DNA of 38,093 bases from Comamonas sp. lk (GTDB taxonomy: Bacteria > Pseudomonadota > Gammaproteobacteria > Burkholderiales > Burkholderiaceae_C), in assembly GCA_945869165.1 (NCBI GenBank), contig CAMBNY010000026.1:1-38093 (forward strand), read 5' to 3'. Below the pieces are notes generated by a model. It did no database searches and was not told where the DNA came from. It saw only the letters and a program-made list of their open reading frames with translations. The position numbers and the translations under genes are program-made. Of the stretch, positions 434-5,939 are shown in pieces (position 1 is the stretch's first letter; each line of letters starts with the position of its first letter).

Positions 434-1798
434 ATGACTATCGAATACCTGAAAACCGCCAAACAAAGCGCGCAAAGCCATGACAGCGACACCACCGCCA
501 CGGTGCAGGCCATGCTCTCAGCCATACGCGCGGGTGGCGAAGAACGAGTGCGCGAATACGCACGCACGCTGGACGGCTGGCACGGCCCTATTGTTTTGGG
601 GCCAGAGCACTTTGCACGCGCTGACCAGGCTTTGAGCGAAGGCGTGAAAGCCGATATACGATTTGCGCACCGCCGCGTTACTGATTTTGCCCAGCGTCAG
701 CGTGATGCTATGCAGGAATTTAGCCATGAATTTATGCCCGGCCTGACGGCGGGCCAGCGCTTGATTCCTTGCCAGAGCGCGGGCTGCTACATACCCGGCG
801 GGCGCTATGCGCATGCTGCCAGCGCCATCATGAGTGTGGGCACGGCCAAGGTAGCGGGCGTCGGTCATATCGTGGCCGCTACGCCAGCGCAAGGCGCCAA
901 CGGTATCCACCCGGCGATTTTGTACGCGCTGCAACTGTGTGGCGCGGACACGGTGTTGGCCCTGGGTGGCGTGCAAGCGATTGCCGCCATGACCATGGGC
1001 TTGTTTGGCTGTAAACCTGCCGACATCATCGTCGGCCCGGGCAACCGCTATGTGGCCGAGGCCAAGCGTTTGCTGTTCGGGCAAGTCGGTATTGACGTGC
1101 TGGCTGGCCCCACCGAGTCTTGCGTGATTGCCGACGACAGTGCCGATGCCGACATCGTCACGGCCGACCTGGTCGGCCAGGCCGAGCACGGGCCGGATTC
1201 GCCCGTCTGGCTGATCAGCAGCTCGCGCACTTTGGCCGAACAAGTGATGGCGCGCGCACCCGCCGCCATTGCCGCCCTGCCCGAACCGGCGCGCAGCGCA
1301 GCCGGCGCAGCCTGGCGCGACTATGCCGAAGTGGTGCTGGTGAGCACGCCCGAAGAAGCGGTGCAAGTGAGCGATCGTTATGCGCCCGAGCATGTGCAGG
1401 TGATGGCGCGTGATTTGGACTGGTGGCTGGCCAACTTAAGCAATTACGGCTCTTTGTTTTTGGGTGAGAACACCACGGTGGCCTATGGCGATAAGTGCAG
1501 CGGGCCTAACCACATCTTGCCCACACGCGGCGCGGCGCGTTATTCCGGCGGCTTGTCGGTGGGCAAATTTATCAAGACGCTGACCTGGCAGCGCCTGGAC
1601 CGCAGCGCCGGTGGCGCAGTGGGCCAGGTGGCGGCGCGCATTTCGCGGCTGGAAGGCATGGAAGGCCATGCACGTACTGGCGACATCCGCCTGCACAAAT
1701 TTTTTCCCGAACAAACATTCGATCTGGGCAGTCTGGACGACTACCCTGCCGATTCTTGGAGCGGCGCGCAAGCGGCCAGCACCAAACCCGGTGTCTAA
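434..1798 (+). CDS. hpsN: Sulfopropanediol 3-dehydrogenase (histidinol dehydrogenase family)
   Basis: This 454-residue protein belongs to the HisD fold. The N-terminus [10 protein letters not shown] and the overall length match HpsN, which oxidises (R)-2,3-dihydroxypropane-1-sulfonate to (R)-sulfolactate with NAD+ in two steps, rather than the biosynthetic HisD. The metal and catalytic residues of the family are all present: Q249 and H252 in GQAEHG, catalytic E319-H320 in YAPEHV, D353 in GDKCSGPNH, and H412 in MEGHARTG. I chose the ATG at 434 over the upstream TTG at 353 because homologues begin at MTIEYLK and the promoter repeats lie upstream. The neighbour 39 bp downstream is a cysteate-lyase gene, and no his genes are nearby, which supports the sulfonate role. 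An alternative is an uncharacterised HisD-like alcohol dehydrogenase for a related sulfonate. Confidence 0.85.
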
Positions 1799-1837
1799 TG
1801 TTTTTTACTACCCTTTAGTCCACTACAAAAGCACGCC

Positions 1838-2842
1838 ATGAAACTTTCCAAATTCCCCCGCCTGCGCATCACCCATGGCCCTACTCCGCTAGAACCCATG
1901 CCACGCCTAAGCGCCGCGCTGGGCGGTCCCACGCTATGGATCAAGCGCGACGACTGCACCGGCCTGGCCACCGGCGGCAACAAAACCCGCAAGCTGGAAT
2001 ACCTGGTGGCTGAGGCCTTGCAACAAGGCGCCGACACCTTGATCACCCAGGGGGCCACCCAGTCCAACCATGCACGCCAAACCGCTGCCATCGCGGCCAA
2101 GATGGGCCTGCAATGCCACATTATTTTGGAAGACCGGACCGGTTACCGCCACGCTGATTACCAGCATTCGGGCAATGTGTTCCTGGACTATTTGTATGGC
2201 GCGCATGTGAGCGAAGTGCCAGGCAACACGTCCATGGACGCAGCGATGGAAACCCTAGCTGCGCAATTGCGCGCCAAGGGCAGCAAGACCTACATCATCC
2301 CCGGCGGCGGCTCCAATGCCGTCGGTGCGCTGGGCTATGTCACGTGTGCGCTGGAACTGGCCGACCAAGCCATGAACATGGGCTTGGTGATCGACAGCCT
2401 GGTGCACGCCACCGGCAGCGCGGGCACGCAAGCGGGCTTGGTGGTGGGCATGGAAGGTGCGCGCACCCAAATACCGGTGCTGGGCATAGGCGTGCGCGCA
2501 CCGCGCCAGCCCCAAGAAGAAAAAGTATTTGCGTTGGCGCAGCAAACCGCCGAACTGCTGGGCGTGCCCGGCGCGGTGCAACGTGACCATGTGGTCGCCA
2601 ATTGCGATTACATCGGCGAGGGCTACGGCATCCCCACACCTGGCATGATGGAGGCGGTGACCATGCTGGCACAGCTCGAAGGCATCTTGCTGGACCCGGT
2701 GTATTCGGGCAAGGGCATGGCCGGTTTGATCGACTTGATCCGCAAAGGTAATTACCGCAAAGACCAAAATATTGTGTTTTTGCACACGGGCGGCGCGGTC
2801 GGCTTGTTTGGCTACCAACACGCTTTCCCCTACCCCACATGA
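1838..2842 (+). CDS. cuyA: L-cysteate sulfo-lyase / D-cysteine desulfhydrase-family PLP enzyme
   Basis: A 334-residue PLP enzyme of the ACC-deaminase/D-cysteine desulfhydrase family (fold type II). K49 in [10 protein letters not shown] is the expected Schiff-base lysine, QSNHAR (residues 75-80) is the cofactor/substrate loop, and [14 protein letters not shown] holds the phosphate-binding glycines. The opening [10 protein letters not shown] and the [32 protein letters not shown] block closely resemble CuyA, which converts L-cysteate to pyruvate, sulfite and ammonium in the cytoplasm. Discrimination from DcyD (D-cysteine) rests on this resemblance and on the hpsN neighbour. No clear Shine-Dalgarno precedes the ATG. 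The stop codon overlaps an ATG (ATGA, 2839-2842) that opens a very short reading frame leading to the racemase gene, suggesting translational coupling. Confidence 0.8.
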
Positions 2843-4899: not shown

Positions 4900-4940
4900 G
4901 ACCATGCCCTGCATGGATTTTTTTATAAAAGGAGACTTAC

Positions 4941-5939
4941 ATGAAATTGCAAAAACGCCAATTACTGGCACTTGCCGCAGGCCTGAGCCTGTGGGGCGCT
5001 GCCGCACTAGCCCAGCAAAAAGAGGTGACCTTCGCGCACCAGGACATGCTGGTGCCTTTCCAGGCAGTCATCGAATCGGGTGAGCTAGAGAAAGCCACCG
5101 GCTACAAAATCAACTGGCGCATGTTTGGCGGTGGCGGCGACGTCATCAAGGCCATGGCTTCGGGTGATGTACAAATTGGCCAAGTCGGCTCCAGCCCCCT
5201 GACCGCTGCGGTGACCCAGGGCCAAGAGATCAAGCTCTTTTGGATTTTGGATGACATCGCTGACGCCGAAGCGCTGATTGCGCGCAATGGCAGTAATGTC
5301 AATTCGGTCAAAGACCTCAAGGGTAAAAAAGTGGCCACGCCGTTTGTGTCCACCGCCCACTACCAGCTGATGGCGGCGATGAAACTCGAAGGCCTATCTG
5401 CGAAAGACGTGAACGTGCTGAATTTGCGCCCACCGGAAATTGCAGCGGCCTGGGAGCGTGGCGATATCGACGCTGCCTTTATCTGGGACCCGGTGCTCTC
5501 CAAAATCAAGAGCAATGGCAAGTCGATTGCCAGCTCGGGCTCCATCGGCCAAAAAGGCTACCCCACGTTTGACGGTATTGCAGTCAATACCAAGTGGGCT
5601 GCGGAAAACGATGCCTTCATGGTGGCCCTGGTCAAAGCCTTGAACAAGGCCGACAGCGAGTACCGCGCCAACAAAGCATCTTGGACGCCCGATACGCCCC
5701 AAGTCAAAGCCATTGCCCGCGTCACCAAAGCCGATGTGAAAGACGTGCCCGCCGCCATGGCACTGTATGTCTTTCCCACTGCGGCTGAACAACTCGGCCC
5801 CAAATGGCTGGGCGGCGGCGCTGCCAAAGCGATGGCCGAGACGGCAGTGTTCCTGAAAGAGCAAGGTCGTATCCAGGAAATCAAACCCGACTACAAAGTG
5901 TTTGTGACCGATAGTTACGCAAAACGCGCCGCGAACTAA
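4941..5939 (+). CDS. tauA: Taurine/sulfonate ABC transporter periplasmic-binding protein (TauA-like)
   Basis: A 332-residue protein with a Sec signal peptide (K-rich start, hydrophobic LLALAAGLSLWGAAALA, cleavage near AQQ). It is followed by an SsuA/TauA/NMT1-type binding fold: ATGYKINWRMFGGGGDVIKA, ASGDVQIGQVGSSPL and LKGKKVATPF match the family. A strong Shine-Dalgarno (AAGGAGA) precedes the ATG. It would capture taurine or a related C2/C3 sulfonate in the periplasm. It is the last gene of the operon, 41 bp after the aminotransferase and ahead of a strong terminator. The partner permease (TauC) and ATPase (TauB) are absent from the window, so it must use components encoded elsewhere. The ligand cannot be fixed from sequence. 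Confidence 0.85.
   Translation: MKLQKRQLLALAAGLSLWGAAALAQQKEVTFAHQDMLVPFQAVIESGELEKATGYKINWRMFGGGGDVIKAMASGDVQIGQVGSSPLTAAVTQGQEIKLFWILDDIADAEALIARNGSNVNSVKDLKGKKVATPFVSTAHYQLMAAMKLEGLSAKDVNVLNLRPPEIAAAWERGDIDAAFIWDPVLSKIKSNGKSIASSGSIGQKGYPTFDGIAVNTKWAAENDAFMVALVKALNKADSEYRANKASWTPDTPQVKAIARVTKADVKDVPAAMALYVFPTAAEQLGPKWLGGGAAKAMAETAVFLKEQGRIQEIKPDYKVFVTDSYAKRAAN

Follow-up and report, generated by a model that had tools for sequence, protein, structure and literature searches.

Here we describe a predicted sulfonate-catabolism operon in a 38,093-nucleotide stretch of DNA from Comamonas sp. lk (contig CAMBNY010000026.1; hereafter the window), which is a whole contig of a 2.64-Mb draft genome that is 84% complete. 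Five intact open frames, all on the + strand, lie within positions 434–5939 and encode an HpsN-like dehydrogenase that depends on zinc and nicotinamide adenine dinucleotide (NAD), the sulfo-lyase CuyA, the racemase CuyB, an aminotransferase of the DegT/DnrJ family that depends on pyridoxal phosphate (PLP; hereafter DegT) and the binding protein TauA (Table 1). The frames of CuyB and of DegT, counted from its likely ATG, overlap by 8 bp. The order HpsN–CuyA–CuyB–DegT–TauA recurs in the same-genus relatives L043, L046, L048, L050 and L051 and also in L047, where TauA is cut at the contig end (loci carry L numbers and genomes G numbers throughout). L061 (Comamonadaceae bacterium) and L064 (Rhodoferax sp.) carry operons with a DegT of 94% and 81% identity, respectively. 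The original prediction, made from the letters of this DNA, had proposed a five-gene operon whose gene order should be sought in other genomes; with all frames intact, on one strand and in an order found again in relatives, that operon is confirmed. Chance or mis-annotation was rejected on these grounds, together with the passing of curated models where such models exist. The gene identities also support its assignment to C3 sulfonates, and judged from sequence the operon probably catabolises a C3 hydroxysulfonate by a route that converges on cysteate and then on pyruvate, ammonia and sulfite.

Table 1 Features of the operon and its borders (aa, amino acids)
Feature	Position	Strand	Basis and remarks
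MocR/PdxR-type regulator, N-terminal part with GntR domain	3..263	-	Rest lost at contig end; by-eye likeness to L041:3229-4728(-)
hpsN-like, Zn/NAD-dependent dehydrogenase of histidinol dehydrogenase fold, 454 aa, motif GGRYAH	434..1798	+	Pfam Histidinol_dh; comparison with PDB 8v35
cuyA, D-cysteate sulfo-lyase, PLP-dependent, 334 aa	1838..2842	+	NF052482
cuyB, cysteate racemase	2964..3689	+	NF052483; likely ATG start at 2964 by eye; open frame from TTG 2919
DegT/DnrJ-family PLP aminotransferase, distinct subfamily, 405 aa	3682..4899	+	PF01041; likely ATG start at 3682
tauA, periplasmic taurine-type sulfonate-binding protein	4941..5939	+	TIGR01729; tauBC not adjacent
Terminator-like hairpin CCCCCGCC-ATT-GGCGGGGG followed by eight T, 3' of tauA	5964..5990	+	By eye

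The HpsN-like protein scores 425 bits against Histidinol_dh, and its best solved relatives are sulfopropanediol 3-dehydrogenases (8v35 and its relatives, 574 bits; HisD, at most 230 bits). It shares 260 of 431 aligned residues (60%) with 8v35. The residues that we compared are those given for zinc, catalysis, carboxylate and sulfonate in the Cupriavidus HpsN study (PMC11382572; this and the other articles cited here are drawn on in excerpt). The window protein keeps the zinc ligands Q248, H251, D352 and H411, the catalytic E318 and H319 and the sulfonate-binding K353, and its GGRYAH is the HpsN motif G-R-Y-A/S-H with the zinc- and sulfonate-binding histidine H126. The carboxylate-binding Ser226 is replaced by Thr, as it is in 38 of the 42 alignment rows of DegT-linked HpsN and in all 38 rows without a DegT link. 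Every one of the 42 DegT-linked rows keeps H126, Q248, H251, E318, H319, D352, K353 and H359, and H411 is present in 41, with a gap in the remaining one; H126 is missing from 14 distant rows among the 38 unlinked ones and from the HisD of the same genome. A HisD mis-called as HpsN was rejected, because a separate histidinol dehydrogenase is encoded elsewhere in the genome and the window protein has both H126 and K353.

DegT matches PF01041 (182 bits) and exceeds the cut-off of no NCBIfam model. Among solved structures it comes closest to sugar and inosose aminotransferases, at 125 bits or less. Aminotransferases of the DegT/DnrJ/EryC1 family carry a PLP-binding lysine and an aspartate, the dehydratase branch having a histidine instead. 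In the window protein the PLP lysine sits in SYKHxNSGEGG, and K200 and D171 are invariant in 13 alignment rows.

The two genes between this pair are covered by curated families. CuyA scores 556 bits against NF052482 (cut-off 450; next model, 342 bits), and its closest solved relative is 7ysk, named D-cysteine desulfhydrase (458 bits). CuyB reaches 238 bits against NF052483 (cut-off 190); the 'Asp/Glu racemase' of the original prediction is thus a racemase gene indeed, under a label that was too general for a curated cysteate racemase. The suggestion that this racemase supplies the D-isomer to CuyA is supported by the curated names, D-cysteate sulfo-lyase and cysteate racemase, and by the pathway text of PMC11382572. 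An imperfect direct repeat (GGCCATGTACGTGAGGCGCGCATTG and GGCCATGCACGTGGGGCGCGCATGA, at 2883–2907 and 2943–2967, 60 bp apart) occupies much of the cuyA–cuyB gap, and its second copy reaches into the likely cuyB start.

TauA scores 352 bits against TIGR01729 (cut-off 304). Of 12 operon-bearing genomes, 8 encode a TauC-like permease of 58–66% identity at another site; the incomplete draft of Comamonas sp. lk itself yields matches of just 26–27% identity. The divergently oriented regulator that is truncated in the window is complete in the relative L041 (3229–4728, − strand), with 499 amino acids and 341 bits against NF052282 (cut-off 320). MocR-type regulator genes occur at 18 of 46 HpsN–DegT loci (three genomes counted twice), and 21 of 35 have Tau-type transporter genes at some point in the examined stretch; both kinds of gene suit an amino-sulfonate substrate. 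In R. pomeroyi, tauABC is reported to import taurine, hpsKLM to import 2,3-dihydroxypropane-1-sulfonate (DHPS) and cuyTUVW to import cysteate (PMC10130141).

The pairing of HpsN with DegT extends well beyond this genus. Among 149 relatives, 17 genomes including that of the window hold DegT at E ≤ 1e-40. A close form (at least 80% identity) is present in eleven others, the same eleven that hold CuyB at 75% or more, and their operons resemble that of the window wherever the contig is long enough, some being cut at contig ends. The remaining five carry a 55%-identical form: G023 shows TauABC–HpsN–DegT–CuyA as far as its contig end, and G077, G017, G027 and G040 show HpsN–DegT–decarboxylase. In a scan that represented each of 84,980 species by one genome, at least 586 DegT relatives were confirmed, from which the best 80 were kept; four of these loci (L061–L064) match the relatives G019, G071, G049 and G035 of the set of 149. 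A single Rhodobacterales-type clade of the DegT tree takes up 39 of the 80, and HpsN was called by script in none of the 39 stretches examined for it. Among the 41 other loci of these best 80, HpsN adjoins DegT in 37, of which 35 were found by script and two by eye (L072, with a TctC-type gene between HpsN and DegT, and L075, with HpsN cut at the contig end). Two of the four exceptions (L061 and L122) are cut at contig ends, and L073 and L093 are without HpsN beside DegT. HpsN and DegT are joined in one open frame of 817–859 amino acids in L116, L121 and L138 (Acidimicrobiales). The association of HpsN with this DegT subfamily is conserved across distant bacteria.

Two loci bear titles that clash with their placement in the trees, L069 (titled Klebsiella pneumoniae) and L136 (Flavobacteriia, unverified), which fall with Betaproteobacteria and Rhodobacterales, respectively; both look like mislabelled metagenome bins.

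The genes that follow the pair are exchanged between loci. Of the 35 scripted HpsN–DegT loci, 13 have CuyA within 6 kb (on the other strand in L076) and 12 have CuyB within that distance. A group II PLP decarboxylase takes the place of CuyA in L079 and L053–L056, and similar decarboxylase genes (25–28% identical) adjoin the fused frame in L116 and also in L138, where the gene is on the opposite strand. The best NCBIfam match of this decarboxylase is diaminobutyrate decarboxylase, at 188 bits far under the cut-off of 900, and cysteine sulfinic acid decarboxylases are among its 29 solved matches, though not the best ones. In L080 (9222–10891) the pair is followed by a RidA-type gene and then by a threonine-synthase-like gene (652 bits, cut-off 303); similar genes occur after the pair in L124 (282 bits, cut at the contig end) and, with one gene in between, in L098 (550 bits). 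In Methanosarcina, cysteate synthase is a paralogue of threonine synthase. The L080 enzyme could act as an L-cysteate lyase that needs no racemase. About half of the 35 loci have none of these three outlet types in the flanks examined. Since the three alternative outlets share a plausible use of cysteate, HpsN and DegT are most simply read as making it, and this gene context renders L-cysteate the likely product of the pair.

Gene identities, residue conservation, pairing and fusion, and swapped downstream genes are all direct observations, and on them we tentatively base a route via cysteinolic acid (2-amino-3-hydroxypropanesulfonate), in which DegT would form this compound and HpsN would oxidise it to cysteate. 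TauA, with TauBC encoded elsewhere, would import the substrate, cysteinolic acid and/or DHPS, and the MocR-type regulator may sense an amino compound. HpsN and DegT would be a two-step module working on one molecule: DegT would aminate 3-hydroxy-2-oxopropane-1-sulfonate at its C2 ketone to give cysteinolic acid, and HpsN would oxidise the CH2OH group to COOH with two NAD+ to give L-cysteate, bypassing sulfolactate and sulfopyruvate by an amino-alcohol chemistry such as that of histidinol dehydrogenase. CuyB would then turn L-cysteate into D-cysteate, which CuyA would cleave to pyruvate, ammonium and sulfite. The near-constant pairing, the fusions and the scarcity of neighbouring sulfolactate dehydrogenases favour the hydroxy-ketone over sulfopyruvate as the substrate of DegT without settling the matter. 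A histidinol-dehydrogenase fold acting on an amino alcohol, together with a fused aminotransferase of keto-sugar type, would be the simplest chemistry that leaves no step missing. The Cupriavidus enzyme (CpHpsN) is reported to be inhibited by L-cysteate (half-maximal inhibitory concentration 2.4 mM), which binds like the natural product (PMC11382572), and its active site thus accepts an amine at C2.

The same two enzymes would also suffice in the reverse order, with HpsN oxidising the keto-alcohol 3-hydroxy-2-oxopropanesulfonate to sulfopyruvate and DegT aminating the latter to cysteate, again without sulfolactate. This order would account for pairing and fusion equally well. However, both the C2 hydroxyl and the sulfonate are zinc ligands in solved HpsN (PMC11382572), and in RpHpsN an aspartate is reported to recognise the C2 hydroxyl (PMC11131964); a ketone would be a poorer mimic of that hydroxyl than an amine, and we regard the reverse order as unlikely.

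In some Acidimicrobiales, proteins combining a flavin adenine dinucleotide (FAD) oxidoreductase with GCV_T, similar to sarcosine and dimethylglycine dehydrogenases, adjoin HpsN–DegT (L098, 4218–6743; L121, 4037–6703), and GCV_T alone stands beside the pair in L116 (4025–5140). These neighbours hint at N-methylated sulfonate substrates. In L099 (9216–11264) the pair is followed by a 682-amino-acid protein with an agmatinase-like C-terminal half and an N-terminal half that has no Pfam match at 0.001, and a glycine-betaine-type binding protein is present as well. The substrate of the operon might accordingly be a different sulfonate with an amino group or an N-modification, such as N-methylation or an amidino group, with HpsN and DegT acting after an unmasking enzyme. 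The distant operons with FAD-DAO/GCV_T, GCV_T alone or the agmatinase-like ureohydrolase speak for such a substrate; no gene of these kinds occurs in the window operon or in the mapped operons of its close relatives, and for the operon studied here we consider it more improbable still than the reverse order.

A stronger competitor, close behind the cysteinolic acid route and itself a real if somewhat lesser possibility, is the published 'CuyA pathway', which is also the route of the original prediction: HpsN would oxidise R-DHPS to R-sulfolactate, an unlinked dehydrogenase would yield sulfopyruvate, and DegT would aminate this to L-cysteate ahead of CuyB and CuyA. In PMC11382572 this route appears with two gaps, its aminotransferase and, for R. 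pomeroyi, the racemase. It needs a sulfolactate dehydrogenase, which the original prediction had found lacking from the operon. A query search bore this out, as no Ldh_2-, SerA- or GlcD-like open reading frame was found in the window. The same search covered 50 HpsN–DegT loci (666 kb, three genomes represented twice) with few queries, so that distant family members may escape it; such frames lie near only two loci, L078 and, on the other strand, L088, and the examined flanks of the other 48 gave none (SlcC- and SlcD-type genes elsewhere in the genomes were outside the search). The nearly constant pairing of HpsN with DegT, at times as a fusion, likewise tells against a sulfolactate intermediate, as do 6 of 30 operon-bearing genomes, several of them incomplete drafts, that lack an Ldh_2 match. 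A zinc-dependent alcohol dehydrogenase is encoded at 4 of the 50 loci (right after DegT in L067, between HpsN and DegT in L078, farther along in L081 and L127) and could make the ketone for DegT there.

Several points weigh against the cysteinolic acid route, and some of them favour the published route. Ldh_2 proteins are present in 24 of the 30 operon-bearing genomes, a chosen subset. The draft genome of Comamonas sp. lk holds two, one of which is closest to the L-sulfolactate dehydrogenase family (150 bits, cut-off 500), so that an unlinked step is possible. In L078, the best family of an upstream gene on the same strand is L-sulfolactate dehydrogenase (204 bits, cut-off 500). That none of the 30 genomes passes this curated cut-off is a weak negative, since just 1 of 14 control genomes does, and we set the cut-off aside as a proof of absence. 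CpHpsN, a proven R-DHPS dehydrogenase of an hpsNOP–suyAB cluster that is R-specific (the L-like configuration), nests among the DegT-linked HpsN proteins in the HpsN tree (support 100/85). Sequence therefore gives no mark of cysteinolate enzymes, and with the examined residues unchanged in DegT-linked HpsN we rejected the view that HpsN divergence proves a new substrate. Natural cysteinolic acid is the D form, whereas CpHpsN is specific for the L-like configuration. Imported cysteinolic acid, moreover, would need HpsN alone. Finally, HpsO and HpsP are reported to oxidise the C3 hydroxyl to sulfolactaldehyde (PMC11131964); neither hpsO nor hpsP is in the window operon, and the rest of the genome was not queried for them.

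The Rhodobacterales-type DegT, which lacks an adjacent HpsN, was considered in the light of lipid synthesis. Roseobacters make a sulfur-containing aminolipid (SAL) with a cysteinolic acid head via SalA (PMC8319176), and the steps of cysteinolic acid biosynthesis, or of the SAL lipid, are described as not established (PMC8319176, PMC11631085). As a query we used a SalA candidate from Roseobacter sp. MED193, picked by the published HX5D and FP[ES]G[TV] motifs. Of 149 Rhodobacterales genomes, 135 hold DegT (E ≤ 1e-80; in G676 in two pieces) and 131 hold SalA at a best E ≤ 1e-70, and many have a second SalA match, about 35% identical where listed. At this threshold both genes are present in 131 genomes, neither in 14, DegT only in four (G608, G614, G616 and G689) and SalA only in none, so that the two agree in 145 of 149 (Fisher p 1.9e-16, ancestry ignored). 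RpoB trees of 60 genomes (all 18 SalA-negative ones and 42 others) and of 100 genomes were used to take ancestry into account. DegT changes six times on the smaller tree and seven times on the larger; five supported pairs are discordant for DegT, with SalA going in the same direction in 4.9–5.0 of them and never in the opposite one, and eight pairs are discordant for SalA, with DegT following in five.

This co-occurrence is fragile in several respects. The threshold of 1e-70 was chosen after a gap between 1e-71 and 1e-49 had been seen. At 1e-40, the value used in the published search (PMC8319176), G608, G654, G666 and G697 become SalA-positive, and the counts are 132 with both, three with SalA only, three with DegT only and 11 with neither (143 of 149 agree; Fisher p 9e-12). 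The ancestry-corrected p value is 0.0625, which is not significant, and with the looser threshold the pairs give 3.5 of 5 and 3 of 7, never opposite (p 0.25). DegT is also not among the 37 genes given as unique to SAL producers in the available text of PMC8319176. We thus do not claim the co-occurrence as proof, given its dependence on the threshold, the corrected p values and the place of DegT outside the published gene list; it could alternatively stem from DegT supplying cysteate as a precursor. It is a doubtful proposition, weaker than that of the route in the window, that the DegT subfamily as a whole is the bacterial cysteinolic-acid aminotransferase, which with HpsN would feed DHPS or cysteinolic acid into cysteate (with CuyA, the decarboxylase or the threonine-synthase-like lyase as outlets) and in roseobacters, without adjacent HpsN, would make the SAL head group.

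Both cysteinolic acid and DHPS belong to the abundant sulfonates of algae; the former is reported in some algae at levels in the range of dimethylsulfoniopropionate or above, and is cited for a freshwater diatom as well (PMC8703288). No catabolic enzyme for cysteinolic acid was found in the accessible portions of the openly licensed literature, nor was a link between a DegT aminotransferase, or an HpsN–DegT fusion, and sulfonate metabolism. The component genes are of known kinds; what looks new is the way HpsN and DegT are paired and fused, the exchange of their outlets between loci and the step through cysteinolic acid that we propose. An enzyme pair that is a single protein in three cases makes the questions of cysteinolic acid catabolism and biosynthesis directly testable.

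Downstream of the operon, two tandem hybrid histidine kinase/response regulator genes occupy 6153–9636 (+) of the window. The close relatives L041 (10962–20000) and L042 (1–8738) have arrays of five such copies over the stretch examined, with two related kinase/regulator types in alternation. Farther along (11232–15497, +), the window encodes a protein of 1421 amino acids that is rich in repeated short motifs; by eye it resembles an autotransporter, and it has no Pfam match at 1e-8.

Among described systems, the closest is the HpsN–CuyA pathway of Ruegeria pomeroyi and Roseovarius nubinhibens, to which 51 of 272 HpsN nodes have been assigned (PMC11382572). It runs from sulfolactate to sulfopyruvate, by reductive amination to L-cysteate and then through CuyB and CuyA; its genes are described as not always co-located, the R. 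pomeroyi aminotransferase and racemase genes are stated to be unknown, and the term 'cysteinol' is absent from the main text (PMC11382572). The existence of this pathway shows that the original prediction was wrong to place HpsN and CuyA in normally separate branches. Its proposal of an aminotransferase as the bridge, by contrast, matches a recognised gap in that pathway, and a role of DegT in introducing the amine upstream of cysteate is supported; the window DegT is a concrete candidate for the missing enzyme. The operon shares with the pathway an HpsN-type dehydrogenase, CuyB, CuyA and the end products pyruvate, ammonia and sulfite. It differs in having no hpsO, hpsP or sulfolactate dehydrogenase, in encoding a DegT aminotransferase that goes unnamed in the description available to us, and in carrying a taurine-type binding protein where the pathway has hpsKLM or hpsU. 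The hpsRNOUP–suyAB cluster of Cupriavidus pinatubonensis encodes an HpsN that is 60% identical to that of the window, with the same zinc, catalytic and sulfonate-binding residues, but ends in the sulfolactate lyase SuyAB and, as described in the text at hand, has neither aminotransferase nor CuyA (PMC11382572). The racemase/lyase pair CuyB–CuyA is present in the window with both curated models (NF052483 and NF052482) passed, and unlike that pair alone the operon also holds what would be a cysteate-forming pair. Finally, the sugar aminotransferases of the DegT/DnrJ/EryC1 family (scyllo-inosose aminotransferases, PseC and ArnB) have the fold family and PLP lysine motif of the window DegT, which in contrast to them belongs to a separate subfamily tied to HpsN and C3 sulfonates.

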